64,000 bases of DNA from Bdellovibrionales bacterium RIFOXYC1_FULL_37_79 (lineage in GTDB: Bacteria > Bdellovibrionota > Bacteriovoracia > Bacteriovoracales > Bacteriovoracaceae), in assembly GCA_001770015.1 (NCBI GenBank), contig MEQB01000067.1, positions 1 through 64,000 of the forward strand. The letters run 5' to 3'. Below, in pieces: positions 15,362 to 35,501 of this stretch; the first letter of the stretch is position 1; each line of letters begins with the position of its first letter. A program made the translations under genes and the position numbers. The notes below the pieces were generated by a model, which searched no databases, was not told the DNA's origin, and saw nothing but the letters and a program-made list of their open reading frames with translations.

Positions 15362-16618
15362 TTAATTGCTCTTAACAGTAAATGGAACTTTATTTTTTTT
15401 CATAACAAGTTTTATCCATTCAAGCCCAACTTTTTCTCGATGCATACTATTTGTACATTCATTGGTTTGACAGAATGACTTTATTTGATAACAAATATTG
15501 TTGTTATTATCATTGAGAAATTTGGCCAAAGCAGATTTTTCTGCATTTTTCGACTGGTTCATATTGCATAAGTCGAGTTGAGTAAAAGTTGAAATTAAGC
15601 TAGTTGCAATACCTGTCCGATGCCAAATAGCGACAGCCTCCGATTTCAAATTAACTAAAGGAGATCCACTGGAACCTGGCCCCCCAGCAATATCATAAGA
15701 GACAAGTTTTTTGGGAGTAATTAAACTATTGAGGATGTCTTCTTTTTCTATTATATCTTCAGAAAATTCACGCTTTGATCGTATAGAAATAATTGCTGGG
15801 TCACATCCCAAGCATCTGGTTGGGAATTGTTTAGGTACTTGTAGAGATGAAATTCGACCTGTACTAAATACTAAGGGATCCCAGGAAAAAAAAGATACTA
15901 TTGAGTTACGACCTGAATTTACGACAGGGTATCTCTGGGTATTTCTTAATTTTTCAAGATGAATCAATTCCCATTTATCGTCATAAGTTCTTAGAGGAAA
16001 ACCTGCCGCAAAAATTCTGTCTCCTTTTTTTGGAAGTTCGATCGAAATTTTTAAGAAACTTGAATTGGTAACATCAGTTTTTTTCATTAATACATAATCG
16101 TGATATCCAAAATATTTGGACTCTTGTGGATATGCGTAGAGAATGTAACCATTCTTACATTTTATTTTATCATCGAAATTTCCGTCTTCCGGTATATCAC
16201 AAAACACTTTGGCAACATGATAATTGGTTAAAAAGAAGCCGTTGTTTGAAATAAAAAAACCGGTTGCTTGATTATCTAATGAAAAAACAGCTTTTGATAT
16301 TCGTCCAAAGTCGACTGAAAAATCCTCTTTTGCAAATATTGAGTTATATTTCCAATAAAGTTTCCAAACCTCGAAACAGTCAACTTTTTGAATTTGATCA
16401 AGTAATTCATTCTCGGGAGAAATTTGAAAATTTTCAGTAAAATTATCTACCAATATCCATTGATCAGCTTCTGAGTATTTCCAATAAAATGAATTTTGAG
16501 ATGTTATTAAATTACATTTTTCAGCACCTGCCCTACTGAAACCATCTTCCGCTATTAGATAGAAACTAAAGAGCACAAATGTACTTACGATTAATAATTT
16601 AATAATTAATTTTGTCAT
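15362..16618 (-). CDS. Secreted trypsin-like (chymotrypsin-fold) serine protease
   Basis: A 418-aa exported protein with signal peptide MTKLIIKLLIVSTFVLFSF...IA. The fold is marked by ATGFFISNNGFFLTNYHV, giving the catalytic His134, and by GGPGSSGSPLVN, giving the nucleophile Ser317. The acid is probably an Asp between them, such as in GYHDYVLMKK. NGFFLTNYHV and SSGSP resemble S46 dipeptidyl peptidases and other S1-type bacterial proteases, though it is shorter than S46 enzymes (about 700 aa). The N-terminal 100 residues have a Trp/Tyr-rich part resembling the S46 helical insertion only loosely. Several Cys (CLGCDP, CYQIKSFCQTNEC) suggest disulfides. It likely acts in the periplasm or outside the cell. 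Confidence 0.75.
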   Translation of the reverse strand: MTKLIIKLLIVSTFVLFSFYLIAEDGFSRAGAEKCNLITSQNSFYWKYSEADQWILVDNFTENFQISPENELLDQIQKVDCFEVWKLYWKYNSIFAKEDFSVDFGRISKAVFSLDNQATGFFISNNGFFLTNYHVAKVFCDIPEDGNFDDKIKCKNGYILYAYPQESKYFGYHDYVLMKKTDVTNSSFLKISIELPKKGDRIFAAGFPLRTYDDKWELIHLEKLRNTQRYPVVNSGRNSIVSFFSWDPLVFSTGRISSLQVPKQFPTRCLGCDPAIISIRSKREFSEDIIEKEDILNSLITPKKLVSYDIAGGPGSSGSPLVNLKSEAVAIWHRTGIATSLISTFTQLDLCNMNQSKNAEKSALAKFLNDNNNNICYQIKSFCQTNECTNSMHREKVGLEWIKLVMKKNKVPFTVKSN

Positions 16619-16687
16619 TTTTTTTCATATGGTTAATATCCTGCTCATTTTGTTAATTTTAAAAAATTCTTGGTTATTTGAATTTTT

Positions 16688-17059
16688 TTAAAGCCTACAA
16701 TTGGTAGATTTCTCTGCCATTTCCAACAAGCGCTCAGAAAGTTGCTTTGCATGTTCAGGCATTCTTTTTCGATACATTTTGGCCATTTCATCATTTCGTG
16801 ATACCTCACTTGCTCCAATTGCATCAGCACTGATTGATAGAGCATCACTAGCAAGCCCCATAAGAATATTAGTTAACTTAGAGTTAAATTCTTTGCAGTC
16901 TGTAATTCCTTGAATTTCATCCTTTCTATGCTGTATAGTCTCCTCCCCCAGAGCTTTAATTTCGTTTGTCAGCTTTTCTATGTCATCCGGGTAATAAGTA
17001 AAGGCAAGCAAGGATACTGATGACGTCAGCGATAATAATCCAATTAATAATTTTTTCAT
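16688..17059 (-). CDS. Small secreted helical protein, unknown family
   Basis: A 123-aa protein with signal peptide MKKLLIGLLSLTSSVSLLAF and a GGAG ribosome site. The mature part is mostly charged helix with two cysteines (ITDCKEF near residue 55 and STNCRL at the very end), suggesting a disulfide that ties the tail to the middle. It lies 69 bp upstream of the trypsin-like protease on the same strand and could be co-transcribed. An inhibitor or accessory role is possible by position only. Confidence 0.6.
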   Translation of the reverse strand: MKKLLIGLLSLTSSVSLLAFTYYPDDIEKLTNEIKALGEETIQHRKDEIQGITDCKEFNSKLTNILMGLASDALSISADAIGASEVSRNDEMAKMYRKRMPEHAKQLSERLLEMAEKSTNCRL

Positions 17060-17431
17060 GTTTATTCTCCTTCTCGGGTATGGTCATTAGATATATGTCA
17101 TGTCAATTACGAGCATGATAAATGAAAGAGATGTTAATTTCAATAAAAATGACGCACAGTGTATTTTCTTCAGTTGGTATCGCTAGTTAGCTAATTGTGG
17201 GGGATAAGTTCCTGATATTATTTATGACAGTTTTGGATTAAACTAGTGTGTAAAGCTCTGGCCTTAACTGTGGCCTGCGTCCATTACAGTACGGAAACTG
17301 GGCACGGTGGCTCTTGGTCGATGGGATTGCTGCGCATTTAGTTGGATGTTGTTGCCAGATATTATCCCATCAAGAAATCAACTATAATGTTATAAGAGCT
17401 TGTGGTTCCCGAATTTAAAAGGGAGATGGTG
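17060..17431. other. Gene-free region
   Basis: About 370 bp lie between divergent small secreted protein genes. A 23-codon frame at 17117-17188 has no ribosome site and was not called. No hairpin, repeat or decayed family could be recognised. Confidence 0.35.
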
Positions 17432-17740
17432 TTGAAAGTATTAGTGGTATTAATTTTTATGATGATGAGCAATAGCATGTATGGAAGACGTCCCGCCATT
17501 ATTGGTAACGCTAGAACGGCGGAGGATGTGTATTGTTCTTATCAAAACAGCTTGATTGATCCAGGCGCAAATAAGGAAGATTTTATTGCTTTATTTGAAA
17601 ATTATTTTAATTTGGGGCAAATTAAAGACGTGGTATTAAAAGAAAAGATTTTTTGCGTGCTTTATGATTTTTATCTAATAAATGATCTGGTCTATGCCGA
17701 GGAATTTAGAAGTCGAATGTCTCATGTTGATTGTCCGTAA
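17432..17740 (+). CDS. Small secreted protein, unknown
   Basis: The frame is open from 17402. AAAGGGAG ends about 6 nt before the TTG at 17432, and starting there gives a compact signal peptide (MKVLVVLIFMMMSNSMYG). ATG and GTG codons at 17426 and 17429 sit too close to the ribosome site. The mature part, about 85 aa, has three Cys (DVYCSY, IFCVLYDF, and the penultimate Cys) and is helical and acidic. It has no recognised family. Confidence 0.5.
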   Translation: MKVLVVLIFMMMSNSMYGRRPAIIGNARTAEDVYCSYQNSLIDPGANKEDFIALFENYFNLGQIKDVVLKEKIFCVLYDFYLINDLVYAEEFRSRMSHVDCP

Positions 17741-18157
17741 TTACCGTCATCCGCTTTTAAAACGATTTTACTGTTGGCATTAAGATAATAAAATCTGTTG
17801 TAACACTTTCTCTATCATATAAATGGGAATGGTACAGAACCGTTCATTGATACAAATAAATTCACCCTTCTAGTATTTTGCCGCCTAAGTATCATAGTCA
17901 TTTCGGTTAAAAAATAAGCGAAATATGTATATTTATTCCTTGGTTATAGTTATCGTCTGTCGACGTTTTTTAAAGTTAAATTTAGGCTAAAATGATTGTT
18001 TTTAGTCTTAAAAATAGCCAACATATTGAAATTATTTATCAACATTCATATTCGCACCATATTTATCAATGGTGGATTGATTCTTTGGACAGACTAGTTA
18101 AAAGATTGATGACAATATGATAATATACTCGCAAAACAACCAACGAGGAGATTTCTG
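17741..18157. other. Upstream region of the DUF134 operon
   Basis: About 415 bp without a gene. A weak plus-strand promoter (TTAAAA, 17-bp spacer, TAATAT near 18119-18126) lies about 35 bp before the DUF134 gene. No RNA element is recognised. Confidence 0.35.
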
Positions 18158-18463
18158 GTGGCACCTTGGCAAAAAAAATGTAGGTATATTGAGAGGGAAT
18201 ACAGCAATCATGTGTTTAAACCCAAGGCCATCCCCATGTCCCAATTGGCAGTCATTAATATTGGACATGATGAATTGGAAGCTGTCAAACTGGTGGATGT
18301 TGAGCACTTAAGGCAGGTCGATGCAGCTGAGAAAATGGGAATATCCCCTGCTACCATTCAACGGATTATCGAAACGACACGAGAAAAAATTGTAAAAGCA
18401 TTGATTGAAGGCCACGCCATTATTATTGATGGCGGAGACTACGAAATTAAAGAAAAAAAATAA
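18158..18463 (+). CDS. DUF134 (UPF0251) family putative DNA-binding protein
   Basis: A 101-aa protein. The GTG start at 18158 is supported by GAGGAG 7 nt upstream. The family pattern is complete: basic N-terminus with KKCRYIE, a short F-x-P motif (HVFKPKAIP), then HDELEAVKLVDVEHLRQVDA. The helix-turn-helix AAEKMGISPATIQRIIETTR and the terminal GHAIIIDGGDYE follow. DUF134 proteins resemble sigma-factor region 4 and are found next to COG1433 and COG1149 genes, as here. It probably regulates the operon, and a palindrome lies just after the gene. No ligand or target is known from sequence. Confidence 0.85.
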   Translation: MAPWQKKCRYIEREYSNHVFKPKAIPMSQLAVINIGHDELEAVKLVDVEHLRQVDAAEKMGISPATIQRIIETTREKIVKALIEGHAIIIDGGDYEIKEKK

Positions 18464-18500
18464 ACGTATTATTTGTTATATATTAAAAATACCACTTGAT

Positions 18501-18522
18501 TATATGGGTATATACTCATATA
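18501..18522. promoter_or_regulatory. Near-perfect palindrome upstream of DUF5320 gene
   Basis: The 22-bp sequence has arms TATATG and CATATA and a GTATATAC core, with one mismatched pair. It lies between the DUF134 gene and the DUF5320 gene, about 65 bp before the latter. It is a good candidate operator for the DUF134 protein or another dimeric regulator. Confidence 0.5.
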
Positions 18523-18585
18523 CTACACTTGAAATAGTCACTATCTTCAAAATTAATCAATTTAATATAATTAAGGAGGGGGAAA

Positions 18586-18891
18586 ATGCCAGGGGGAGAC
18601 AAAACAGGACCGATGGGTCAAGGACCAAGAACGGGTAAAGGGATGGGATTATGCAGTCCTCATCCAGGAATCCATCATCGAAGTGGTTTTGGCTATCGGA
18701 GAAGGTGTGGCAGAGGAATGGGGTTTTTGAATCGTTTTGGTAATTTATGGGGATTCATAAAACAGGCTTTGCCCAGAGAAAAAGATCTGCAAAGTTATTT
18801 AAACGAGTTAGAAGCTGAACTCAATGAAGGTAAAGAAGTATTAAAAAATATTATTGATTTGAAGAATAAGGAAGATGACCAATCAGAATAA
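18586..18891 (+). CDS. DUF5320 family small Gly/Arg-rich protein
   Basis: A 101-aa protein preceded by AAGGAGGGGGA. Its first 20 residues (MPGGDKTGPMGQGPRTGKGM) are the hallmark of DUF5320. A Gly/Arg/His-rich stretch with two cysteines (GLCSPHPG and RRCGRGMG) follows, then a C-terminal coiled-coil helix (LQSYLNELEAELNEGKEVL). Members occur in anaerobes beside COG1433 and MinD-like ATPases. Its biochemical role is unknown. The Cys/His residues could bind metal, and the helix may mediate oligomerisation. Confidence 0.85.
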   Translation: MPGGDKTGPMGQGPRTGKGMGLCSPHPGIHHRSGFGYRRRCGRGMGFLNRFGNLWGFIKQALPREKDLQSYLNELEAELNEGKEVLKNIIDLKNKEDDQSE

Positions 18892-18949
18892 CGTTAAGGT
18901 TGTTAAAATTATCAGCATACAGATGTTACAGACATAAGGATGAATTACA

Positions 18950-19912
18950 ATGCATGTATTTGGCCCAGTTCCTTCTAGGCGTTTAGGAACATCCCTCGGA
19001 GTGGATTTGGTGAAGCATAAAATATGCTCACTAAATTGTGTCTATTGTGAGTGTGGGGCAACCACTGACTTGACGATTGATCGGAAATCTTTTTTTCCCC
19101 TAAGTGATATTATTTTTGAAATCGATAGTATCCTCGTGGGAAAACCATATTTGGATTACATTACTTTTTCGGGAAGCGGGGAACCCACGCTTTCAAGTGA
19201 TATTGGAGAGGTGATTCGTTATATAAAAAAATATTATCCTCAATATAAGATTGCGCTACTGACTAATGCTACCTTGTTAAATGATATAGCTTTAAGAAAA
19301 GAGCTTTTGCCGGTTGACTTGATTATTCCATCCGTAGACGCTGGAAGCGAAGAAGTTTTTAAGAAAATTAATTGCCCGCAAGTGAATTTATCCCTAGGAG
19401 AACTGGTAAACGGTCTGAAGGCATTTGCTGATGAATTTGAAGGACATGTCTGGATTGAAGTATTTATAGTTCCTGGTATTAATGATGATGATAGCGAGAT
19501 TGAAAAAATTAAACAGATATGTCATTTGATAAATCCAGAAAAAATACAGCTAAACACCTTGGATCGTCCTGCCCCTCATAATCCTACTATCACCTCGGCA
19601 AACATTGAATCACTTATGGCGATGGAGAAAATATTTTATCCACTAAAAACTGAAATTATAAAGTCATCAAACAATAATGTTTTAAAACAAACCAATTCAA
19701 AGTTCACCTCTCACATCCTTTTAAATATCATGGATATGATTTGCAGACGCCCCTCCACCACGCAAGATATAGCCAGTGCGCTTGGTTTAAGGATGGTCGA
19801 AGTAAATAAATATTTAAAACAACTTAAGGATAAAGGTATCCTGCTTTTTAAAGATGAGGCCAGAGGACGATTTTACTATATAGAAAATAAAAATTCCGAG
19901 GATACAAGATGA
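18950..19912 (+). CDS. Radical SAM protein (COG0731-like) with C-terminal winged helix
   Basis: A 320-aa protein. The N-terminus FGPVPSRRLGTSLGVDL is typical of this radical SAM subgroup. The cluster motif is ICSLNCVYCECG (C-x3-C-x2-C), followed by TFSGSGEPTL for SAM contact. After the barrel, about residues 240-315 form a winged-helix domain (RRPSTTQDIASALGL, then VNKYLKQLKDKGIL). The stop overlaps the start of the double ATPase gene by 4 nt (ATGA type), indicating coupling. The family is often encoded next to MinD-like ferredoxin ATPases and COG1433 proteins. The substrate is unknown. Confidence 0.85.
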   Translation: MHVFGPVPSRRLGTSLGVDLVKHKICSLNCVYCECGATTDLTIDRKSFFPLSDIIFEIDSILVGKPYLDYITFSGSGEPTLSSDIGEVIRYIKKYYPQYKIALLTNATLLNDIALRKELLPVDLIIPSVDAGSEEVFKKINCPQVNLSLGELVNGLKAFADEFEGHVWIEVFIVPGINDDDSEIEKIKQICHLINPEKIQLNTLDRPAPHNPTITSANIESLMAMEKIFYPLKTEIIKSSNNNVLKQTNSKFTSHILLNIMDMICRRPSTTQDIASALGLRMVEVNKYLKQLKDKGILLFKDEARGRFYYIENKNSEDTR

Positions 19913-21777
19913 ACAATATTGTAATTGCCAGCGGAAAAGGGGGAACCGGGAAAACCACCGTTGCTGTCAATCTTGCTTATTATTTATCTACCAGCGAGCA
20001 CCAAAAAGTGACTCTCCTTGATTGCGATGTAGAGGCACCTAATGACAATCTGTTTATTAATGCAAAATTTTCCGAAACTCGGGAAGTTAAAATTCCAAGA
20101 CCGGTATGGATAGAAGACCGATGTAGTTCTTGTGGCAAGTGTGTCTTGGTATGTAATTATAATGCAATTGCTAAAGTCAAAAATAAAATTTTAATTTTTA
20201 ATGAACTATGCCACTCATGCGGTGCCTGTATTTCGCTTTGTCCTCACAGCGCTTTAAGAAAAGAAGAGCTAGCAATTGGGAGGGTGGAATTTGCGAAAGA
20301 AAATGCACCCTTTGCGTTTGGCCACGGGATTTTAAAGATTGGAGAAAGTCTTGCTCCGCTAGTGATCAAGCACTTGAAAAAATATATGGACAAAAGTTCC
20401 ATCAATATAATTGATGCTGCTCCCGGCACGACCTGCCCTGTAGTTAAGTCAATGGAAGGTATGGATTACTGTCTGCTAGTAACAGAGCCAACACCATTTG
20501 GATTAAATGATCTAACTCTTGCCGCATTGTTGGCGGCTAAATTAAATCTTCCAACAGGAATTGTGATTAATAGGTCTTACGGAGCGGATCAAATAATTGA
20601 AGATTTTGCGACGTCATGCCAGATCCCAATTGTCGGGAAAATCCCTTTTGATAAAAAATATGCTCAAAGTTATTCCAAAGGAGATGTTTTAATTAAAAGT
20701 TTCCCAGAATTAAAGGCGATCTTTGCGGACATATACTTGCAAATGAAGTTGATTCAAAGAGTGCCACTGGTTGATGAGATCAAGGACCAAGATGTGGGAG
20801 CAATGGTCAATATTTTTAGTGACAATAATAAAATACAAAAAACGCCCTATCAAGAGATGGTGGTGATTAGTGGTAAGGGGGGAACTGGAAAAACCACAAT
20901 TACGTCTGCGCTAGCAGAGCTTATGGAAAATAAAGTGTTGGCAGATAATGATGTTGATGCTTCGAATCTTTATTTATTGTGTAAGCCGGAAGTTCTAAAA
21001 TCAGGCGATTTTACTGGAGGTAAAAAATATTTTATTGACCAGGATAAATGCGTTGGTTGTGGTGCATGTCTACATTTATGTCATTTCGATGCTGTTCATT
21101 TAGCTTCTGGCAAACCAGGTAAATATGAAATTAATAAATTGTCTTGCGAGGGATGTGGCCTTTGTTATCATCTCTGTAAGTTTGGTGCAATTTCAAGCTA
21201 CGAAACCGTATCGGGGAAATGGTATATCTCAAAAACAAAACAGGGATATTTAAGCCATGCCAAATTAGGTACGGGGGAAGAAAATTCTGGAAAGTTGGTC
21301 AGTTTAGTTCGCAATAATGCATCAGACATTGCTCAACATTTCGGGATGAAGCACATTTTAAGCGATGGGCCGCCCGGTACGGGATGTCCGGTGATCTCCG
21401 CCATAACCGGAGTGGATCAAGCTTTGGTGGTTACAGAGCCGACATTATCAGGCATCCATGATATGCAGAGGGCTCTTGATTTGGCCAAACATTTTAGTGT
21501 GCCTTCTTTTATTGTTATTAATAAGTTTGATTTAAATAGGGAAATGACGGAGAGGATTAGAAGCATTGCCAAGGAATATAAATCCAAAGTTATTGGAGAA
21601 ATACCGTTTGATAAAAATGTTCATGATGCTCTTATGAAGGGGGAAAGTGTTGTTACTTATAAAAAAGGTGAGGCCTATCTGGCAATTTTAAATCTCTGGA
21701 AAAATTTAGATTCACAAATAAACCAAGATGAAATGATGTCAGTATTTAAGAATATCTTAGAAAGGGGTGTGAAATGA
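19909..21777 (+). CDS. Fusion of two MinD/Mrp-type ATPases with ferredoxin inserts
   Basis: A 622-aa protein made of two copies of a COG1149-type module that is normally encoded by two genes. Copy 1 has the deviant Walker A SGKGGTGKTT (residues 8-17), LLDCDVEAPN, an inserted 2x[4Fe-4S] ferredoxin (CSSCGKCVLVC at 72-82, CHSCGACISLC at 101-111) and DAAPGTTCPV. Copy 2 has the same Walker motif at about 321-330, a ferredoxin insert (CVGCGACLHLC, CEGCGLCYHLC) and DGPPGTGCPV. Copy 1 reads APGT where PPGT is usual. Such ATPases handle iron-sulfur or Mo-Cu clusters with COG1433 proteins. The gene is overlapped on both sides by operon neighbours, so it is probably cytoplasmic and co-made. Confidence 0.9.
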   Translation: MNNIVIASGKGGTGKTTVAVNLAYYLSTSEHQKVTLLDCDVEAPNDNLFINAKFSETREVKIPRPVWIEDRCSSCGKCVLVCNYNAIAKVKNKILIFNELCHSCGACISLCPHSALRKEELAIGRVEFAKENAPFAFGHGILKIGESLAPLVIKHLKKYMDKSSINIIDAAPGTTCPVVKSMEGMDYCLLVTEPTPFGLNDLTLAALLAAKLNLPTGIVINRSYGADQIIEDFATSCQIPIVGKIPFDKKYAQSYSKGDVLIKSFPELKAIFADIYLQMKLIQRVPLVDEIKDQDVGAMVNIFSDNNKIQKTPYQEMVVISGKGGTGKTTITSALAELMENKVLADNDVDASNLYLLCKPEVLKSGDFTGGKKYFIDQDKCVGCGACLHLCHFDAVHLASGKPGKYEINKLSCEGCGLCYHLCKFGAISSYETVSGKWYISKTKQGYLSHAKLGTGEENSGKLVSLVRNNASDIAQHFGMKHILSDGPPGTGCPVISAITGVDQALVVTEPTLSGIHDMQRALDLAKHFSVPSFIVINKFDLNREMTERIRSIAKEYKSKVIGEIPFDKNVHDALMKGESVVTYKKGEAYLAILNLWKNLDSQINQDEMMSVFKNILERGVK

Positions 21778-22136
21778 TTTTAGCAATTACTTCCAATGGG
21801 AAAAGTCTTACTTCTGGAATTGATCAACGATTTGGACGAGCAAAGTATATTATTTTTTATAATACAGATGACTCCAGTTTTGAGTGTTATGACAACGATC
21901 TCAATCTCAATGCTCCACAAGGTGCTGGAATTCAAACCGCTCAAAATGTCGTGGATAAAGGAGGAGAGGTTGTTATTACGGGAAACTTGGGGCCAAAGGC
22001 TTTTAGAGTTTTAAGCGTGGCGAACATCAAGGCTTTTTGTGCTGTTGATGTGACCGTAGCAGAGACAATTGAGTCTTTCAAAAATTGTAAATTAAAAGAA
22101 TTAACAAATCCTAACGTTGAAGGACATTGGGGTTAA
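21774..22136 (+). CDS. NifX/ORP-like (COG1433) cofactor-binding protein 1
   Basis: A 120-aa protein of the dinitrogenase iron-molybdenum cofactor family. Landmarks are the Asp-Gln-Arg-Phe-Gly-Arg-Ala motif near residue 22, NAPQGAGIQTAQNVVDKG, and ITGNLGPKAFRVL. It starts inside the stop of the double ATPase gene (ATGA overlap). Homologues bind FeMo-co precursors or, in the Desulfovibrio orange protein, a Mo-Cu-S cluster. The gene order ATPase then COG1433 protein fits cluster delivery. Nitrogenase genes are absent here, so nitrogen fixation is not implied. Confidence 0.85.
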   Translation: MILAITSNGKSLTSGIDQRFGRAKYIIFYNTDDSSFECYDNDLNLNAPQGAGIQTAQNVVDKGGEVVITGNLGPKAFRVLSVANIKAFCAVDVTVAETIESFKNCKLKELTNPNVEGHWG

Positions 22137-22151
22137 CTAAAGGAGTTTTCA

Positions 22152-22490
22152 ATGAAAATAGCAGTACCTGTAGCAAACCAGCTTTTATGCATGCACTTTG
22201 GACATTGTGAAGTTTTTGCTTTCTTTGAAGTGGATGAAGCTAAAAAAATTATTAAAAGCTGTACTGAGGTTACTCCTCCCGCTCACGAACCTGGGATACT
22301 TCCCCAGTGGGTAAAAAAACAGGGGGCTGATCTTGTTTTAGCAGGAGGTATGGGACAAAGAGCGCAGGAACTTTTTAATCAAAACGGCGTCCATGTGGTT
22401 GTCGGTGTCACTGAAAATAATCCGGCCAAGGCAGTGCTTGATTATTTAAAGGGAAATTTGATCACTGGAACGAACGCTTGTGATCATTAA
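22152..22490 (+). CDS. NifX/ORP-like (COG1433) cofactor-binding protein 2
   Basis: A 112-aa protein with AAGGAG before the ATG. It has HFGHCEVFAFFEVD, then PPAHEPGILPQWV and GGMGQRAQELF, with TGTNACDH at the C-terminus. The His and Cys residues at these sites define the His-rich subgroup of COG1433 and may ligate metal. They are absent from the first copy, so the two are not simple duplicates. It ends 27 nt before the VKOR-DsbA gene. Cofactor identity cannot be told from sequence. Confidence 0.85.
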   Translation: MKIAVPVANQLLCMHFGHCEVFAFFEVDEAKKIIKSCTEVTPPAHEPGILPQWVKKQGADLVLAGGMGQRAQELFNQNGVHVVVGVTENNPAKAVLDYLKGNLITGTNACDH

Positions 22491-22517
22491 AAATGTGGAA
22501 ATTAACGAGGTGAAAAA

Positions 22518-23780
22518 ATGTTAGGGATATTTTATTCATCCAAAGACCCAGAAAAATTTGGTAAAAACTGCGGCGAAGAAAAAAGAACAATACCTTACGT
22601 CCAATTAGTGATAGTTCTGATTGGTTTAGGTGCTTCGTTTTGGACGTATCTTCTTCATCTTCAGCTTAAAGCACAATTGGGATCTCCCTTGATTTGTGAT
22701 GTAAACGAAACACTTAATTGTTCTAAAATTATAGGGAGTGCGCAGGGGGAGTTTTTTAATATTCCGCTTGGAATCTGGGGAATGAGCTATTGGTTGATTG
22801 GATTAAGCCTGGTTTATTTCTTGAAATTTTCGCAGGCTTCTTTCAGATATATTGTTTTTTGGAGGATGCTGGTTTCTTCGGTTGGATTTCTTTTTGCTTT
22901 AGTCCTGATTTATATTTCATACTTTATATTAAATGGGATTTGCGAATTTTGTTCAGTAGTCCAGGCATGTTGTATCCTTTATTTTATTGCATCATTTATC
23001 TCTTATAAAAGAATGGACAAAAATTCGGTTTACTACGCTTTGTCGCTGGATTTTTATAAGTTAGTTGGCAGTGTGGTAATTGCTTTTATTATACCTTTAA
23101 TGATTTTTGCTGCTACCAATACATTTTTATATGAATATTATAAAAAAAATATTGAGCAAAATAGTGCTTCTAAAGAAGGGCCAATTGCATCTCAAACGAG
23201 TGTTTTGCCCCTTCCTTTCTTAGATAATGAGGATGTTGACTTTTCTTTAGGAGATGATAATGCCCCGGTGGATTTAATCGAATTCACTGATTTTGAATGT
23301 CCTTTTTGCCAGCTGTTGCACGAAAAACTGCAAGAATTAAAACCTTTAATCGATAAAGGGATGATAAAAATTTATTTTAGAAATTGGCCTCTTAGTTATC
23401 ACCAGTATGCCACCACTTTGGCGATTGCTGCCAGGTGTGCGGGTTGGCAAAACAAATTTTGGGAATTTGCCAATTGGTCATTTAAAACGGCAAAACAATT
23501 TGCAGAAGATCCAAAGAAGAAAGAAAAAGCTTTTTCTGATCATGGGATTATTTCACAAGCAAAATTAATAAAGTTAAACCTTGTTGATTTTGAAGCTTGT
23601 CTTCAAGACCCCAAAATGCTTGCTAAAATTAAAAAAGATAGTTCGGATGCTGCTCTTCTCGGAGGAGAGGGTACTCCGTTTTTATTGGTGAACGGCATAC
23701 AATATGAGGGAGATTGGTTAAACCCAGACGAATTAAAAAACGACATTCTTAAAATCATTAATAAAAAACGTAAAAAATAA
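22518..23780 (+). CDS. Membrane VKOR-DsbA thiol oxidase fusion
   Basis: A 420-aa protein with five or so membrane helices and a periplasmic thioredoxin-fold domain. The VKOR part has the loop cysteines Cys60 and Cys68 (LICDVNETLNCSK), the conserved GEFFNIPLGIWG, and the quinone-side CxxC Cys142/Cys145 (NGICEFCSVV). A membrane segment (180-200) leads to a DsbA-like domain with Cys261-Pro-Phe-Cys264 and the cis-proline loop GTPFLLVNG. It should form disulfides in exported proteins and pass electrons to quinone. This suits the many Cys-containing secreted proteins in the window. It is the last gene of the 18.1-23.8 kb operon. Confidence 0.9.
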   Translation: MLGIFYSSKDPEKFGKNCGEEKRTIPYVQLVIVLIGLGASFWTYLLHLQLKAQLGSPLICDVNETLNCSKIIGSAQGEFFNIPLGIWGMSYWLIGLSLVYFLKFSQASFRYIVFWRMLVSSVGFLFALVLIYISYFILNGICEFCSVVQACCILYFIASFISYKRMDKNSVYYALSLDFYKLVGSVVIAFIIPLMIFAATNTFLYEYYKKNIEQNSASKEGPIASQTSVLPLPFLDNEDVDFSLGDDNAPVDLIEFTDFECPFCQLLHEKLQELKPLIDKGMIKIYFRNWPLSYHQYATTLAIAARCAGWQNKFWEFANWSFKTAKQFAEDPKKKEKAFSDHGIISQAKLIKLNLVDFEACLQDPKMLAKIKKDSSDAALLGGEGTPFLLVNGIQYEGDWLNPDELKNDILKIINKKRKK

Positions 23781-23932
23781 ATAAAGTCTCCAATATTGAG
23801 AAGCTGAAGTTAAATATCTGATTTGAGTAAAACAGTCGGATGTTACAGAGAAGCGGGCCAGTAAAAAAAGCATGAAACGCGAAATCTAATCCAAAGGTTT
23901 GCGAAATACTCATGTATAATTAATGCTAGCCT

Positions 23933-26125
23933 ATGGAAAATAAAATCTTAAATAAAATGATCAAGCCTGAAATCTTCCTGCCAATATTTATTATAGCTTA
24001 TGTTATTTTGAGTTCATTATTGTTTTATAAATTTTGGAATTATAGCAATGATCAAACATCTAAAATGGCAATTCAAGCAACGGAAGCGATGGCGATTGGA
24101 TTGAATGGCGAAATGTATAGAAGGTTGAGAGGAGTGCCTGAGGATGTTGGAACAATTCATTTTGAAAGTGTAAAAAAAAGAATAATGAAATTAGTGGAAC
24201 TTTATAAGGGCGTTAAGTTTATCTATCCATATATTTTGAGGGACGGAAAGTTGATTTTTATTGCGGATTCTGAACCACCCGAATCAAAGGATTATACCCC
24301 TCCGGGGACTGAATATTCTGAAGCCGATCCTGAATATTTTCGGCCTTTTAAAGAGAAACGGGCCATTGTAACCAAACCCGTAGTGGATAGATGGGGGACT
24401 TGGGTGTCGATCCTGGTTCCTATGATTGATGAGACTACCGGTGAAGTGACTTCCGTTTTGGGGGTTGATTATCCTGTCAGCAAGTGGAATGACGATGCGG
24501 TAATACATATAACCCAATTGTTTGTTATTCTTTTATTCTTTCTTCTTCTCTTGATAACGATTTATCGATTAGTCGTAAGTATTCATACTCGCAAGACCAA
24601 GGAACAAATGCTGCGGGAAAAAGAAAAGTCATATCAAGAGTTGTTTGACGGAAGTCGGGATGGACTCGTGATGGTGGATACGCAAGCAGGTATCCTTGAT
24701 GTTAATTCTGCATTTTGCCAAATGCTTGGGTACAGTTTACAGGAACTTAAGGAAAAGGAAGATTTTTATTCAATTACTCCGGAAAAATGGTGGAGGTATG
24801 AAAAAGAAGAAATTTGGAATAATCGATTGCTTAAGCAAGGCTATTCCGGGATATATGAAAAAGAATATATTAGAAAAGATGGGACCATTTTTCCAGTTGA
24901 ACTTCAGGCCTATACCCTAAAAGATGAATCAGGGAACGTTAGTTCCTTGTGGGCCGTGGTTCGTGATGTCACCGAACGGAAAAAAATGGAGCAACATACC
25001 CTCAAAACTCAAAGACTGGAATCAATTGGAATTTTAGCGGGGGGTATTGCCCACGATTTGAATAATTTACTTGGTGGAATCTTTGGGTACATAGAGTTGG
25101 CAAGAAAGAATGTTAATGAAGGAAAATTCGATGATGTTTTGAAATATTTATCAAAGTTGATGACGATGTTTTATCGGGCCAAGGATTTGTCACTACAACT
25201 TTTAACTTTTTCAAAAGGTGGGAATCCGGTTTCTAAAAATCAATCTCTGATACCGATTCTTAAACGGTTTTCAGAGTTTTCTTTGAGTGGTTCCAATGTC
25301 AAGTTGAATATTTCAGTGCCCGATGATTTATGGAATGTATGGGTGGACGAAAACCAAATGGGGCAGGTTATAGATAATATTATCATTAATGCCAAGCAGG
25401 CGATGCCGGCTGGAGGAGAAATTACAGTTTCAGCTAGGAATGTGTTACCTGGAGAAATTCTTCCGATAGGACTTAAGGCAGGCCAGTATGTTTGCTTTTC
25501 GATTGCGGATAATGGTGTGGGGATTTCACCAGAAAATTTGACTAAAATTTTTGATCCATTTTTCACGACCAAGCAAAAAGGAAGTGGGCTGGGGTTGGCT
25601 ACGGTTTATTCAATTATAAAAAGGCATGAAGGTGAGATTGACGTTAAATCACAGCTTCATGGGGGGACAATTTTTACGATTTATCTGCCGGCTTCAATCT
25701 CGCAAGAAAAAAGTGAGCCAGCGCAAGCGAATGAAGAATTTAAATATTATGGCAATGTTTTAATTATGGATGATGAAGAGGATTTACTGGATCTATTTGC
25801 ATGTAATTTGCAAGAGTTGGGTTGCACTGTTACCTGTGCTCATAATGGAGATGATGCGGTGGAATTGTTTTTAAAGGCCAAAGCTGCTTATAAACCTTTT
25901 AATTTGGTGATTTTGGATTTGACGATTCCTGGAGGGATGGGCGGAAAAGATGTAATCAATCGTTTGAGGGCAATTGATAATTCATTTATTGCTATTGTAT
26001 CAAGTGGCTATTCTGATGATGATATTATGGCAAAGCCATGTGAATATGGATTTAATGATTCAATTGCCAAACCCTATTCTAGTCAGGAGTTTATTGAAGT
26101 GCTTAGACGAAATGGTTTGAAATAA
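23933..26125 (+). CDS. Hybrid sensor histidine kinase with PAS and receiver domains
   Basis: A 730-aa inner-membrane protein. A membrane helix (residues 15-37) and a second (about 197-218) enclose a periplasmic sensor region with Cache-like features (DYPVSKWNDD end). A PAS domain follows (about 235-360, ending VRDVTERKKMEQ), then HisKA with His374 in GGIAHDLNNLLGGI. The HATPase domain has NIIINAKQAM, DNGVGI, DPFFTTKQKGSGLGL and GGTIFTIYLP. A C-terminal receiver has the acidic pocket DDEE and phospho-Asp662 (VILDLTIPGGMGG). Output is by phosphotransfer only. The convergent response regulator gene at 26133 is a possible partner. No ribosome site is obvious. Confidence 0.9.
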   Translation: MENKILNKMIKPEIFLPIFIIAYVILSSLLFYKFWNYSNDQTSKMAIQATEAMAIGLNGEMYRRLRGVPEDVGTIHFESVKKRIMKLVELYKGVKFIYPYILRDGKLIFIADSEPPESKDYTPPGTEYSEADPEYFRPFKEKRAIVTKPVVDRWGTWVSILVPMIDETTGEVTSVLGVDYPVSKWNDDAVIHITQLFVILLFFLLLLITIYRLVVSIHTRKTKEQMLREKEKSYQELFDGSRDGLVMVDTQAGILDVNSAFCQMLGYSLQELKEKEDFYSITPEKWWRYEKEEIWNNRLLKQGYSGIYEKEYIRKDGTIFPVELQAYTLKDESGNVSSLWAVVRDVTERKKMEQHTLKTQRLESIGILAGGIAHDLNNLLGGIFGYIELARKNVNEGKFDDVLKYLSKLMTMFYRAKDLSLQLLTFSKGGNPVSKNQSLIPILKRFSEFSLSGSNVKLNISVPDDLWNVWVDENQMGQVIDNIIINAKQAMPAGGEITVSARNVLPGEILPIGLKAGQYVCFSIADNGVGISPENLTKIFDPFFTTKQKGSGLGLATVYSIIKRHEGEIDVKSQLHGGTIFTIYLPASISQEKSEPAQANEEFKYYGNVLIMDDEEDLLDLFACNLQELGCTVTCAHNGDDAVELFLKAKAAYKPFNLVILDLTIPGGMGGKDVINRLRAIDNSFIAIVSSGYSDDDIMAKPCEYGFNDSIAKPYSSQEFIEVLRRNGLK

Positions 26126-28263: not shown

Positions 28264-31200
28264 GTGAATTATAAGGGTTTTGTAACTACAGTGATGATGA
28301 GCGTATTTTTTGCAGTAGTTGCTACTCCTAAATATGCCTGTAGTGAGGAGATAAACTTTTTGGATAAAAGAATCCAAAAAATTGAATTAATGTATGTTGA
28401 ACAGGTTTTAAAGTCGTTGGGAAATGAGCAAGCGACGTCATTTGAAATAATTACTCGATACATAGGTGGCAAGCTATCAAATGCAAATGTTTCCCTTAAA
28501 GAGCTGGAGGTTTTAAAGGGGTTGGTTTGGAAGTATCCTCAGGTGTTTGTGAATATTTTGGGTGAACAAAGTAAAGCAACTTCTAATAATAATGTGTCGC
28601 AGTTAGTGCCCATACTATGTTTGATCATCCTGGCGGCGGATGAAGCGTTGGTGTTTAAGTCAGTGCAGATCATTCAAAAGATTGATGTGCAAAAAAGAAA
28701 AATGATATTGGATCAAGCACTGCGTTTTGTGTTTTATCCCGAACATGTAAAAAACTTTGCCAGTTATTTAAATAATTTTGAAGATTATTTTAACAGCAGT
28801 AAAATGAATATGATCCATGTGGCCGCAAGACGAAATCATCAATCAGGTTTTGTCGGTTTAGTCTATGAACAAGTACTAGATAGCAAAGGTGCTAGGAAAG
28901 AATTAGATGAGTATATTTTAAAAATTAGAGACAATTTAGAAAGAGAAGCGGTTTCGACCTATCAGATAATGGCTGATTTCAAAAAAAATTACTATTTGCG
29001 ACTGGAGGTAATTGATATCTTGAGAGGGAATCCTCAAATAGATTTTAAAGAGTTTATAAAATTGGCACAAAAGTTAAGTAGCAATCAATATGATGATTAT
29101 CAAGATTTCTTTTACGAACTTAGGGACATCGTGGAATGTACTAATTATTTGCCAGAGGCTGATTGTGAAAACCGGAAAGATCAAATTATTCAAAATCTTC
29201 TTAATAATCATCAACGTCAAAATTCATTTAGGCCAAATTTGTATGGACTTAATTCGATTTTTTATAATGAATATAAGGGGAAAGTTTTTGAGTTTGTTGA
29301 AAAAACCGTTGACCATTTTGATATTCTCTCAATACATCAACAAGCGTATAGCGTGTACCTGATGGCTCTAAAGATCGGGGATGATTCTCTTAAGGAGATA
29401 GCTAAGGAAAGTATTACGACTAGTATCTTAGGGGAAAATGCCAGTTTTAATAGCATAAGTCCAGAGATTTTTGAGCAACCAATTTTTATAGATGATGATG
29501 GTATGGTGCCTGATAGAATTGGGATATTAAAAAATAGATATACACAACAAGGCAAAAGCTATTATCAAATTCAAAACAAAGTTGACACCGTGGAAAATAG
29601 GTTTGCTTATTTTATTAATCAGATAGCAAGTTCCCTGGAAATTAAATTCCTCATGACGGTAGAAGATATCCAGGAAGTTGGATTAAATGATGACATGATT
29701 AATAAATCAAAGCAGATTGCTAAACTGCTTACGCAATTGTGGGAAGGTATCATTATTGACAATCCCCAGGTCGTTGAAGAGGCGAAAAGAATTTTAAATC
29801 GTCCTGAAAGTGATTTCGGTAGGATTTCAGCGGAGGCTTTTTTGAAGGCCAATAAGGGACCAGAGGAGCTTTCAACATATCTCAGGGAAATTGAAAATAA
29901 AGACTGGATTAATTATTTGGAGAAGTTAGAAAAATTGGATGTATCCAAAAAACCGGTACCAACGCATCCCAGTTATGAAGAGCGCACGGTGAATCAGGCG
30001 TTATACAGTCAAAAGATCAAAACGTATCAAGAATATCATCAAGCAAGAGAAAGGGTGAAGGTGATAACCAGATCCTTGGTGTATTATAATAACCGGTTTG
30101 AAATTAAAAAGTGGCTTAAAGATTTTTTTCTCAATTCAAAACATATTGAATGTGAAAATGATATCGAGCTTGATATTGTCATGGCGGCGTTACTCAGTTT
30201 TGATGATGATTTGCAGTATATTGCTAGTCAATATGTGTTAAGTAAAATGAATCGTTCCCTTCCAAAACCTGCCTGGGAGCAAAATCTTTTAGGAGGGCTG
30301 CGGGTTTATTTACATCAGTCAGATCAACATAAAATGAAGATGAATGTTTCTAAGCTGGTCAGTTTATTTACAACTCAATGTGATGAACAATTTATAAAAA
30401 AATCTTTACTTCCAGAATATATGCAGGAAATAAACCATGACATGAAAAAAATCCTGGAGAAGATTATCAGCGGTTGCTTAAGTAATGAACAAATTGATCT
30501 AATCATATCTCAAATTGTTGAAAAACAACTAATTGGTAACATCCCTGATATTGAGAGTATGGTGGAGGGTATAACCCGTGTGGATCACGCTTGGTCAGGT
30601 TTAAGCAAAAGTGAGCTTAATGCGCTTGAAAATTTTTTCTCGTTTGCTTCTTATGATATGCCTCAAGTCCGTAGCAGATTGCTGCAAATCATAACTTATT
30701 TATCCATTTATCATGAGGAATCCTTGGTAGGTAAAATTTTATTTTTAGGTTTAAAGAAAAAAGGTGAGTTCGATGAGTTTGTAACTGAACTTATCTTGCA
30801 GAGAATGAAAGGCAAGGATGAATTATTTAATCGGACTCTTGGTAGGATATATAAGACTGATAAATCAAAAGAAGAGTATTTCTTTTTAAAAATTTTATAT
30901 GGCGTCAGGTATGGGTTACTTTCTAAAGAAGAAATTCTTTCTCTACTTTTAAAACTTGATTTTAATTATAGATTGATTCAAGAGGCGGTCGAGTTCGAGG
31001 CAAGGTATCACTCATCTTATACTCCTTCGTTAGAGGTTGAAATTGCGCAAAAATATATTAGAGAAAAAAAAGGAGCGGATTATCTTAATCAGATTTTGCT
31101 CAATAATGATATAAGAAATTTATATATGGTAGTTAATGGAGGATATTCCCCTACTTCTAATGATGAGTATCAAGAAATTGCGATTGAATCATTTGATCGT

Positions 31201-32727
31201 TTTTTATTCCATCAGGAAGCGGTGGTGTTAAATGCAGGAGGGCCACAGACATTATATGCAGTCGTTGATGATTTGGGTACGCAGCAAAGAGATCAGGACG
31301 GAATGATTCAAGTTAAAGAGAGTACTTATTCCAAGACCACCCTCAAGGCTATTTTTAAAAACATAGACCGAGTGGTAGATGATTTTGTAAAAAAGAAACC
31401 AAAAAAAGTCAGTTTTGCCTTTATTGATCATGGTGGACCGGAAGGCATGGCCCTATGGGGCGAACGCATGGATATGAATAAACAAAGATCATATCTTGAT
31501 AAATTTGATGAAAATACCATAGTTCAAAGTTTTTTTTCAGCTTGTCATGCAGGCGCTAATTTGGTGTTCCCTCATCGGGTTTATCCTTTCCAGAGTGCAA
31601 ACATGTTTGAATTTCTTGAGTTTCATTATCCCTATAATAGATGTGCTCTTGGTATAAGCATGCATGATGAAGTCAGCTATAGTTATACCGTGGCAAAGAC
31701 CAGTGCCGCTGATAGTAAATGGTCTCAGATTTTTAAAGCCTTTCCTAAGTTGACTCTGGCCACATTCCAGCGAATTTTATATGGCAGTGGAATTCACGAC
31801 GGTCTTTCAGATGGCAAAGTTAGCAGTACTCCTATATTGACATCAGATTATTTCGTTGATGATATCGCAAAAATTATATGTTTGGAAAAATTACAAAAAC
31901 CAGAAAATACTGATGTGATGAACTCACCATTTTTTGTAGAGATTATTCCTAAAACACTTGAAGAAAATTTACAAATTACCTCGGCTCGTCTTATTAATGA
32001 AATTGTGGCGCTTTCTTGTGGGGACGAACATCGACAAAAGATGGATAAATTTACCAAAGAATATAAGGAGTTTGAATTGTGGTATGATAAATTTCAATCA
32101 CTGCTAAATAGTGTTACGGTTAAGTATCTAAAAGAAATTCGGCCTGAAGCATTTATGGAATATACAAAATATTTGAAAGAAATTGAAGGTTTAAAGGCAA
32201 AACTTTTAACTAATGAAATTACGGGGGAAGAAAAGGATAAATTATTTTATTTAAGAGATAATCCGCCTCTTTCTTATAGCAAAATAAAAAGTTCTATAGA
32301 AAAGGGGTATCAGTTTAATAAACAATTTAATGAAATTTTTATAAATATAATTGAATCAAAGGAAAATGAAGTGGTGCTGGAAAATGGGCAGTTGTTTGGG
32401 CCATCGGCCATGTATATAGAAAATAAGGATAAGATCTATAGTTCTACAATCACCTTTAAAAAAGAGGAGCTTGAATACCTGCGAAAAAAATTTTCAAATT
32501 GTTTGATTAATAAATCAAGCTGTGTAAATGGTAATTTAATAAATGATCTGTTGGATGATTGTTATCAAAAAGGCCGCACTGCTCAAGTTGAGCGACAAAA
32601 GTATTACCAAAAATATCGCAGCACACTTAGAAAATTAGTAGAGGAATTATTGGATGATCCTTATTTGCTGTCAATCAGGAGAAGATATGAGTCTATTCAC
32701 CATTGCGAGAATATACCTTTTAATTAG
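28264..32727 (+). CDS. Giant secreted protein with clan CD (legumain/gingipain-like) peptidase domain
   Basis: A 1487-aa exported protein. The GTG start at 28264 has AAGGAG 5 nt upstream and gives a signal peptide ending near KYACSEE. Residues 30-950 are almost all amphipathic helices with Leu/Ile spacing like HEAT/ARM-type solenoids, with no recognised domain. A peptidase-like domain follows. The strand AVVLNAGGPQTLYAVVDD opens it, then KVSFAFIDHGGPEGM gives His1056 and VQSFFSACHAGANLV gives Cys1094. The Asp-His-Gly-Gly and Ser-Ala-Cys-His-Ala-Gly motifs are strikingly like legumain and caspase active sites. The last 300 residues are helical. Its 3' end overlaps the lipoprotein gene that follows. 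Confidence 0.75.
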   Translation: MNYKGFVTTVMMSVFFAVVATPKYACSEEINFLDKRIQKIELMYVEQVLKSLGNEQATSFEIITRYIGGKLSNANVSLKELEVLKGLVWKYPQVFVNILGEQSKATSNNNVSQLVPILCLIILAADEALVFKSVQIIQKIDVQKRKMILDQALRFVFYPEHVKNFASYLNNFEDYFNSSKMNMIHVAARRNHQSGFVGLVYEQVLDSKGARKELDEYILKIRDNLEREAVSTYQIMADFKKNYYLRLEVIDILRGNPQIDFKEFIKLAQKLSSNQYDDYQDFFYELRDIVECTNYLPEADCENRKDQIIQNLLNNHQRQNSFRPNLYGLNSIFYNEYKGKVFEFVEKTVDHFDILSIHQQAYSVYLMALKIGDDSLKEIAKESITTSILGENASFNSISPEIFEQPIFIDDDGMVPDRIGILKNRYTQQGKSYYQIQNKVDTVENRFAYFINQIASSLEIKFLMTVEDIQEVGLNDDMINKSKQIAKLLTQLWEGIIIDNPQVVEEAKRILNRPESDFGRISAEAFLKANKGPEELSTYLREIENKDWINYLEKLEKLDVSKKPVPTHPSYEERTVNQALYSQKIKTYQEYHQARERVKVITRSLVYYNNRFEIKKWLKDFFLNSKHIECENDIELDIVMAALLSFDDDLQYIASQYVLSKMNRSLPKPAWEQNLLGGLRVYLHQSDQHKMKMNVSKLVSLFTTQCDEQFIKKSLLPEYMQEINHDMKKILEKIISGCLSNEQIDLIISQIVEKQLIGNIPDIESMVEGITRVDHAWSGLSKSELNALENFFSFASYDMPQVRSRLLQIITYLSIYHEESLVGKILFLGLKKKGEFDEFVTELILQRMKGKDELFNRTLGRIYKTDKSKEEYFFLKILYGVRYGLLSKEEILSLLLKLDFNYRLIQEAVEFEARYHSSYTPSLEVEIAQKYIREKKGADYLNQILLNNDIRNLYMVVNGGYSPTSNDEYQEIAIESFDRFLFHQEAVVLNAGGPQTLYAVVDDLGTQQRDQDGMIQVKESTYSKTTLKAIFKNIDRVVDDFVKKKPKKVSFAFIDHGGPEGMALWGERMDMNKQRSYLDKFDENTIVQSFFSACHAGANLVFPHRVYPFQSANMFEFLEFHYPYNRCALGISMHDEVSYSYTVAKTSAADSKWSQIFKAFPKLTLATFQRILYGSGIHDGLSDGKVSSTPILTSDYFVDDIAKIICLEKLQKPENTDVMNSPFFVEIIPKTLEENLQITSARLINEIVALSCGDEHRQKMDKFTKEYKEFELWYDKFQSLLNSVTVKYLKEIRPEAFMEYTKYLKEIEGLKAKLLTNEITGEEKDKLFYLRDNPPLSYSKIKSSIEKGYQFNKQFNEIFINIIESKENEVVLENGQLFGPSAMYIENKDKIYSSTITFKKEELEYLRKKFSNCLINKSSCVNGNLINDLLDDCYQKGRTAQVERQKYYQKYRSTLRKLVEELLDDPYLLSIRRRYESIHHCENIPFN

Positions 32728-34380: not shown

Positions 34381-34382
34381 GA

Positions 34383-35435
34383 TTATTTATCCTTTGAAAA
34401 CCAATGTGATGTTTTATTGGCGAATTTTACTAAAATAAGCATAACAGGGACTTCAACAAGCACACCGACAATTGTGGCCAAAGCGGCTGGAGAACTTGTG
34501 CCAAAAAGGGAAATTGCCACTGCTACTGATAATTCAAAAAAGTTTGAAGCTCCAATCATGCCGGCAGGTGCTGCTATGTCATGTTTTAGTTTTAATAGTT
34601 TGGATGCCAAATAGGCTATAAAAAATATTAAAAAAGTTTGCAGTGTTAATGGGACAGCAATCATTACAATATGTAGAGGATTCTTTAAAATAACATCCCC
34701 TTGAAAAGAGAAAATAATGATCAAAGTTAATAAGAGTCCAATAATAGTAATATTGTTAAATTTAGGAATAAAAGAATGATTGAAATAATTTTCTCCTCTT
34801 TTTTTGATCACAAAAAGACGTGTTAAAATTCCAAGTCCAAGAGGAATAACGACAAAAAGGATTACTGATAAAATCAAAGTGTTCCAGGGAACAGCAATGC
34901 CACCGATGCCCAATAAGAACGCCACAATGGGCGTGAATGCGATAAGAATAATTATGTCGTTTGTGGCGACCTGAACCACGGTGTAAGCAGGGTTTCCCCT
35001 GGTGAGATGACTCCAAACAAAAACCATGGCCGTACAAGGAGCGGCTCCCAGCAGAACTGCTCCTGCTAAATATCCTTTGGCCAAATCTGCGGGAATAAAA
35101 CTTTCAAAGACAACATAAAAAAAGAAAGCTGCGATTCCATACATTGTAAATGGCTTAATAAGCCAGTTGGTAATCCAGGTTACATAGAGTCCCTTGGGAT
35201 TCTTTCCGACATTTTTGATACTTTGAAAATCAACTTTCATCATCATTGGATAAATCATAAGCCAAATCAAAACAGCAATTGGAATTGAAACGTTCGCATA
35301 CTCAAATTGGCTTAGAAATGAGGGTAGAAATGGTAAAAATTTTCCAACGAAAACTCCGATGGCCATACAAAGCATTACCCATAAAGTTAAATACTTTTCA
35401 AAGAAGCTGATGCCGATGTTTTTTTTATCACTCAT
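34383..35435 (-). CDS. acr3: Arsenite efflux permease ACR3
   Basis: A 350-aa membrane protein with about ten helices of the bile/arsenite transporter superfamily. Typical segments are WLMIYPMMMKVDF and WLIKPFTMYGIAAFFF. The strictly conserved Cys134 lies in GAAPCTAMVFVWS and is needed for arsenite transport in characterised members. It exports arsenite across the inner membrane. It lies between arsR and the arsC-arsM fusion in one operon. Confidence 0.93.
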   Translation of the reverse strand: MSDKKNIGISFFEKYLTLWVMLCMAIGVFVGKFLPFLPSFLSQFEYANVSIPIAVLIWLMIYPMMMKVDFQSIKNVGKNPKGLYVTWITNWLIKPFTMYGIAAFFFYVVFESFIPADLAKGYLAGAVLLGAAPCTAMVFVWSHLTRGNPAYTVVQVATNDIIILIAFTPIVAFLLGIGGIAVPWNTLILSVILFVVIPLGLGILTRLFVIKKRGENYFNHSFIPKFNNITIIGLLLTLIIIFSFQGDVILKNPLHIVMIAVPLTLQTFLIFFIAYLASKLLKLKHDIAAPAGMIGASNFFELSVAVAISLFGTSSPAALATIVGVLVEVPVMLILVKFANKTSHWFSKDK

Positions 35436-35501
35436 ATAGTTCTCCTCGTCCCTCTATCAAACGATAACAATATTTTTTGTCAAATAATTACCTTCCTAAA
35501 G

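Follow-up and report, generated by a model that had tools for sequence, protein, structure and literature searches.

Gene content of the operon

The stretch of DNA analyzed here (the window) comprises 64,000 nucleotides, positions 1 to 64,000 of contig MEQB01000067.1 from Bdellovibrionales bacterium RIFOXYC1_FULL_37_79. This report concerns an operon at positions 18158–23780 of the window, in which two ATPases related to those of the orange protein (ORP) gene set are encoded as a single chain of 622 amino acids (aa). Open reading frames (ORFs) and domain matches confirm the gene set named in a first-pass annotation of this DNA. The genes are given below together with two candidate sites upstream of the second gene.

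18158–18463, + strand: DUF134 (UPF0251) helix-turn-helix protein (PF02001, 8e-24); GTG start preceded by AACGAGGAG
18496–18524: promoter-like TTGATT-17-TATACT, overlapping the 22-base pair (bp) palindrome
18501–18522, no strand: AT-rich palindrome of 22 bp over the promoter-like site upstream of DUF5320; inverted repeat TATATGGGTATATA/TATATACTCATATA
18586–18891, + strand: DUF5320, a small glycine-rich protein (PF17253, 1.3e-17)
18950–19912, + strand: radical SAM protein with a C-terminal winged helix (helix-turn-helix) (PF04055, 2.9e-15)
19909–21777, + strand: single chain of 622 aa that joins two MinD-type ATPases, each carrying a 2x[4Fe-4S] insert (CbiA/MinD matched in two stretches, Fer4 four times)
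21774–22136, + strand: first COG1433 protein, ORP type (PF02579, about 1e-18; phmmer match to ORP entry 2wfb, E 1.5e-13)
22152–22490, + strand: second COG1433 protein, the free-standing Di-Nase domain of MrpORP (PF02579, about 1e-18; NF041136 positions 265–365 of 365, E 6.9e-36)
22518–23780, + strand: VKOR–DsbA fusion (VKOR plus thioredoxin; PF07884, 5.4e-19; PF13462, 1.4e-18) with five hydrophobic segments

The genes had been described as tightly packed. This is true from the radical SAM gene to the VKOR–DsbA gene, where the spacings are −4, −4, +15, and +27 bp, but not at the front of the operon, where gaps of 122 and 58 bp are found. Promoter and terminator scans returned sites at a frequency not above that expected by chance. 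The evidence for a sigma70 promoter and for the palindrome is too weak for an assignment, and the 22-bp palindrome is at best a possible operator.

The second COG1433 protein carries the sequences CMHFGHCE and CDH, which match the CXHFGHCE and terminal CDH motifs of the MrpORP Di-Nase domain (PMC6345978). A third COG1433 protein of the same genome is encoded far from the operon (C31; locus L028, 7246–7623), near genes for a copper-type P-ATPase and a cation/H+ antiporter-like protein.

Taken as a whole, the operon is a compact variant of a widespread, poorly understood anaerobe gene set that handles metal–sulfur clusters. Since both the two-domain MrpORP and a sigma54 activator are lacking, we call it an ORP variant rather than a member. 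It had been put forward as an undescribed system, a description that does not fit a module that is widespread and has been partly characterized in Desulfovibrio (PMC6345978).

The fused ATPase

The ORF of the 622-aa protein is intact, and the reported layout of two MinD-like ATPases with 2x[4Fe-4S] each is correct. Residues 1–281 form the N half, 282–312 a disordered linker, and 313–622 the C half. The Walker A motif begins at residue 9 in the N half and at residue 322 in the C half. The CxxCxxCxxxC motif occurs four times, complete in every case, at residues 72, 101, 381, and 413. Alignment reveals that the Walker A motifs, including the signature lysine, and all 16 ferredoxin cysteines are essentially invariant.

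Beyond these 16 residues, exactly one cysteine is invariant in each half, namely C176 (78 of 78) and C493 (85 of 85). Both are located in the switch-II motif D-x-x-P-G-x-x-C. At this position, aligned MinD proteins have no cysteine and the Mrp proteins inspected read PPGTGD. The Asp-to-Cys spacing of the motif is the same as that between Asp125 and Cys132 in NifH numbering. In the nitrogenase Fe protein, Cys132 and Cys97 hold the cluster that bridges the subunits (PMC9571451). The alignment contains no second invariant nonferredoxin cysteine in either half, and no equivalent of Cys97 was identified. By analogy with NifH, C176 and C493 may act at the interface between the two halves.

The AlphaFold prediction for the fusion has a predicted template modeling score (pTM) of 0.85 and a mean predicted local distance difference test score (pLDDT) of 86.5, and a fusion from a different phylum (Spirochaetales) gives a pTM of 0.86. 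Poor prediction is limited to the linker (pLDDT under 50) and the C-terminal tail. Such pTM values would not be expected for two equal domains lacking a defined mutual orientation, and the two halves are thus predicted to be placed relative to each other with confidence. The structure alignment (A3) comprised fusions together with in-frame read-throughs of adjacent gene pairs, which add artificial linker residues and leave the domains unchanged. In fold, both halves resemble MinD, ApbC, NifH, and BchL, with Z values of 22–24. A profile search of PDB yielded ferredoxin matches alone, and searching by sequence turned up no solved structure of this ATPase type.

Distribution and origin of the fusion

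Relatives were examined in 97 genomes, 67 of which are of good quality. In addition, GTDB genome contigs were scanned with an alignment query, and the best 80 of at least 320 loci were taken (the distant loci). Among the 97 relatives, a full-length fusion is present in the window genome (G000) and in G022, which belongs to another genus of the same family (56% identity, no stops). Two other genomes of the family, G019 and G025, have split ATPase genes. G001, from the same genus as G000, retains only the C-terminal part of the fusion. An insertion sequence with 17-bp inverted repeats (L025, 7595–7611 and 9083–9099) occupies the place where the N half of the G001 gene would be expected. Overall, the module is rare in the phylum (7/369 genomes).

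Fused ORFs also occur among the distant loci, in metagenome-assembled genomes (MAGs) of other phyla. These include representatives from Eisenbacteria (L029, 626 aa), Spirochaetales (L031, 621 aa), Chitinivibrionales (L033, truncated by the contig end), and Omnitrophota (L035, 609 aa). A fused ORF from Lentimicrobiaceae (L044) is tentative because it has one ambiguous base near the linker. At the remaining distant loci, the ATPases are encoded by two genes. A scan of viral contigs with the 622-aa fusion as query gave no relatives. The existence of other full-length fusions, which the first-pass annotation had proposed to search for, excludes a lost stop or a local assembly fault as the source of the fusion.

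In a maximum likelihood tree of concatenated N and C halves, six of the fusions group together in a single clade (bootstrap 93, SH-aLRT 98), with inner clades at a bootstrap of 100, and the split copies of G019 and G025 stand far from it. A single clade holding all seven fusions, including that of L044, is rejected (approximately unbiased test, p-AU 1.7e-67). This pattern suggests that one old fusion lineage has moved between phyla, perhaps with a second origin, although single records may possibly be misbinned MAG contigs.

As had been assumed, the two ATPases are normally separate subunits: 70 fetched loci have separate and mostly adjacent genes. At 60 of these 70 loci the gap between the ATPase genes is ≤120 bp, and the commonest layout is a 4-bp overlap. 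The distance matrices of the N and C parts are correlated (r = 0.74), a value reached in none of 1000 permutations. The ATPase pair is an obligate unit, and the fusion is the Rosetta-stone form of the Orp3/Orp4 pair. The proposal that the fusion fixes a 1:1 ratio of the two ATPases is likewise supported. The fused variant of the ORP module is genuine and evolutionarily stable.

Genomic neighborhood

Conservation of neighboring genes, raised earlier as a point to check, was measured over the relatives, the distant loci, and a tally of 84 loci in which family names were assigned partly by reading. The recurrent neighbors in this tally are COG1433 (64), Mrp-type P-loop (35), NifU-like (23), metallo-beta-lactamase (21), DUF89 (15), sigma54 activator (13), radical SAM (11), and Fur (10). 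The NifU-like, Mrp, and Fur-type neighbors provide a context of cluster assembly and iron. Sigma54 activators of the DVU2106 type are found at 13–14 other loci.

DUF134 is encoded close to the ATPase pair at 18/80 distant loci and in G022 and G025, and it adjoins the module in Peptoclostridium acidaminophilum. It is probably the regulator of the module. The start motif of DUF5320 is seen at 31 of the 80 distant loci. A homologue of the radical SAM protein is present at 14, and in the Spirochaetales locus its gene lies directly behind the fusion.

A flavoprotein resembling CoA-disulfide reductase recurs as a redox neighbor in G022 (L024, 7876–9213) and in the Omnitrophota locus, where it is next to the fusion (L035, 1490–2833). 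Genes for the same type of flavoprotein lie exactly between the two ATPase genes at L050 (6628–7986) and L055 (6658–8004). Several ORP-type clusters have nearby genes that resemble serine dehydratase/cysteine desulfidase or methionine gamma-lyase (L027, 13804–15318; L026, 1898–3160; L027, 3396–4658; L031, 4109–5257). These enzymes are possible sources of sulfide.

The VKOR–DsbA protein retains all of its catalytic cysteines (CEFC at 142, the loop pair C60/C68, and CPFC at 261). As is usual for this family, its redox centers should lie on the periplasmic side of the membrane and hence apart from the ORP proteins, which are cytoplasmic. It had been regarded as a thiol oxidase added to the module, but this association is not conserved. 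No VKOR gene is located beside the module in G001 or G022, where VKOR genes are unlinked, or in G019 or G025, and none is near it at the 80 distant loci except for a weak match in L108 about 7 kb away. VKOR–DsbA is therefore probably a co-directional neighbor and a bystander.

Proposed role of the fused ATPase

The explanation we favor, and consider somewhat probable, is that the fusion is a single-chain, ArsA-like ATPase heterodimer that loads clusters of the Fe–S type onto two COG1433 proteins, or moves them there, in an anaerobe-type cell. Counterparts of Orp3 and Orp4 would reside on one chain with a flexible linker of ∼30 residues between them. This arrangement would make the protein an obligate internal heterodimer, as is the case for the ArsA halves. 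Binding of ATP would close the two P-loops on each other, and the four [4Fe-4S] centers of the inserts would supply electrons, clusters, or both. C176 and C493 occupy the position at which the nitrogenase Fe protein binds its bridging cluster, and they would help to carry a cluster and release it to the two COG1433 proteins. DUF134 would probably act as the regulator, and the radical SAM protein and DUF5320 may have accessory roles. In favor of this explanation are the behavior of the D. vulgaris proteins (co-purification of Orp3 with its partners, and cluster transfer from MrpORP in vitro; PMC6345978), the adjacency and correlated distances of the split ATPase genes, the AlphaFold and fold results, the invariant cysteines, the cluster-assembly and iron neighbors, the co-occurrence with FeFe hydrogenase, and the lack of MoaC, MoeA, canonical Mrp, and nitrogenase in the genome.

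The same fold could instead serve an ATP-dependent reductase like NifH, BchL, or the archerases, in which the ferredoxin inserts pass low-potential electrons on to an enzyme or a cluster protein and no cluster is transferred. The best fold matches include NifH and BchL, one cysteine per half has the Cys132 spacing, there are four ferredoxin-type centers, and the flavoprotein described above is a partner in the G022 and L035 operons and at L050 and L055. However, this flavoprotein is missing from the window operon, of the two cysteines that bind the cluster in NifH, just one has a candidate in each half, and published ORP data concern cluster transfer. We consider a reductase unlikely.

Metal content and host physiology

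Gene absences reported here rest on profile searches, and the G000 assembly is 96% complete in 74 contigs. MoaC and MoeA were undetected in G000 and G001, and neither genome has a ModB match over the cut-off. Both MoaC and MoeA are present in G022, G019, and G025, with strong ModB-type matches in G019 and G025. Although each absence alone could be a gap, several independent absences common to G000 and G001 make it likely, as judged from gene content, that G000 is a molybdenum-poor cell. The earlier statement that no nitrogenase is present is borne out genome-wide, with no PF00148 match in G000 and none in five genomes searched.

These data bear on the suggestion that the operon equips its first COG1433 protein with the Mo–Cu sulfide cluster known from the Desulfovibrio orange protein. 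The match of the first COG1433 protein to 2wfb and the kinship of the gene set speak for it. Against it stands the lack of MoaC, MoeA, and a ModB match over the cut-off in G000 and G001. The cofactor genes and strong ModB-type matches are present in the relatives with split ATPases, G019 and G025, and no molybdenum-transport family stood out among the recurrent neighbors. The claim that similar gene sets build the Mo–Cu cluster in Desulfovibrio holds with respect to kinship, whereas assembly of that cluster by orp genes is not shown in the cited literature. A Mo–Cu cofactor is unlikely in this operon, and the corresponding assembly function appears quite improbable.

Canonical Mrp was not found in G000, where the best E value is 5.6e-15 compared with 1e-92 or better in Mrp-bearing relatives, nor was it found in G001. 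The fusion could thus be a general Fe–S cluster carrier that replaces the missing Mrp/ApbC, and the ApbC fold of each half is in agreement with this idea. However, G022 has the fusion plus Mrp, the fusion is broken in G001 even though Mrp is missing there too, and the module is rare in the phylum, which leaves a general carrier as improbable as Mo–Cu assembly. If the fusion is instead a dedicated loader of the two COG1433 proteins, then it would function in this lineage without an Mrp P-loop carrier and probably without molybdenum. Given these two absences, its product would more likely be a cluster of the Fe–S type than Mo–Cu.

FeFe hydrogenase is present in 4/67 good-quality relatives (G000, G019, G022, and G025), which are exactly those with the ATPase pair; the chance of this coincidence is 1 in 766,480 (67 choose 4), a figure that applies to nonindependent genomes and to a post hoc comparison in which three markers were tried. 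G001, G022, and G025 have no COX1-type oxidase, G000 has one lower-scoring match, and G019 has several matches. The hydrogenase co-occurrence and the COX1 pattern fit the finding of orp genes in anaerobes (PMC3897727). No general link was seen between the module and anaerobic ribonucleotide reductase.

Several observations weigh against a dedicated cluster-loading heterodimer. NifH uses two cysteines per subunit, whereas the fused proteins offer one invariant candidate per half, and the literature yielded no biochemical work on fused proteins. The loss of the N half next to an insertion sequence in G001 means that this genome can dispense with the module. Incompleteness of the G000 assembly means that an absent gene may sit in a gap. 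Moreover, absence of ModB is weak evidence by itself, since G022 has MoaC and yet no ModB match over the cut-off.

Two other functions fare worse. It is very improbable that the fusion acts as a positioning protein for the septum or a cell pole: it has the MinD fold, and the D. vulgaris ORP complex has been proposed to act in cell division, with MrpORP being polar (PMC6345978), but MinD lacks the ferredoxin inserts and the switch-II cysteine that are invariant here, and the recurrent neighbors are cluster-assembly rather than division genes. Still less credible is a store of iron and sulfide like that formed by Pyrococcus IssA, which accords with COG1433 kinship (PMC5524996) and with Fur-type neighbors at some loci but not with the lack of the cationic, glycine-rich IssA tail in both COG1433 proteins, and storage needs no ATPase pair.

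A bolder form of the cluster-loading explanation can be offered tentatively, although we think it rather doubtful. The operon might be a natural ORP module that is free of both Mo and Mrp, with a single fused ATPase taking the place of the three usual ATPase subunits and carrying a cluster across its internal interface via C176/C493. Such a protein would be a single-chain, asymmetric analogue of the nitrogenase Fe protein that serves small COG1433 proteins exclusively as acceptors. The fused pair provides the heterodimer as one stable polypeptide suited to expression, to mutation half by half, and to crystallization, and a host without detectable molybdenum genes gives direct access to the Mo–Cu question. 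A sharp mechanistic test, which would be valid family-wide, is offered by the invariant cysteine in the switch-II motif of either half.

Other features of the window

An arsenic-type cluster at 33169–38828 includes, by reading, Acr3-like and ArsP-like permeases. It also contains a 403-aa protein (33169–34380, − strand) with an N-terminal LMWP-type (ArsC-like) domain and a C-terminal ArsM-like methyltransferase. Six starts of the form ATGACNAA(A/G)(T/C)T (MTKL...) are found at 225, 4625 (− strand), 13695, 14366, 16618 (− strand), and 39338, compared with a chance expectation of 0.3. Five of the six coincide with the start codon, or with an ATG in frame shortly after it, of proteins that look exported, and the upstream sequence is not clearly shared. 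Three large proteins without a Pfam match (192–1277, 5845–7296, and 28264–32727) have motifs of the His-Gly and Ser-x-Cys type that recall clan-CD (caspase/clostripain-like) peptidases. A 2917-aa protein at 53844–62597 is cyclic beta-glucan synthase-like by reading.

Comparison with known systems

The closest characterized system is the ORP complex of D. vulgaris (Orp3, Orp4, Orp5, Orp8, and MrpORP; PMC6345978, PMC3897727). There, Orp4 and Orp8 are recovered when Orp3 is purified. The complex, which is putatively tied to cell division, receives Fe–S clusters in vitro from MrpORP, a polar Fe–S carrier (PMC6345978). The window operon shares the Orp3/Orp4-type ATPases with all 16 cysteines, here on one chain, and the Orp8/ORP-type COG1433 protein that matches 2wfb. 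It differs in that the MrpORP P-loop is absent and the Di-Nase domain stands alone, at 124 of the 450 cut-off bits. No sigma54 activator is present among the ORFs scanned in 15362–26125, and DUF134 and radical SAM genes are present instead. Neither canonical Mrp nor a molybdenum pathway was found in the window genome.

The split clusters of G019, G025, and P. acidaminophilum have a homologous ATPase pair and COG1433, with DUF134 in P. acidaminophilum and G025. In contrast to the window operon, their ATPase genes are separate and an Mrp P-loop or full MrpORP is present. The gene row in P. acidaminophilum is DUF134, a NifX-type protein, the two ATPases, and full MrpORP.

IssA of Pyrococcus furiosus has a COG1433-type domain and binds iron and sulfide (PMC5524996). 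The COG1433 proteins of the window lack its cationic, glycine-rich tail and are encoded with an ATPase. The nitrogenase Fe protein and BchL resemble the fusion in fold, in the deviant Walker A motif, and in the Asp125–Cys132 spacing of one cysteine per half. The fusion differs from them as an asymmetric single chain with ferredoxin inserts, no identified Cys97 equivalent, and no nitrogenase partner.

ArsA of Escherichia coli (583 aa; PMC2963123) likewise has two homologous deviant-Walker halves on one chain with a flexible linker, and the halves of the fusion are packed together in the prediction. ArsA has no ferredoxin inserts and an arsenite pump as its partner. Its halves arose by intragenic duplication, whereas the fusion described here joins two distinct operon partners.

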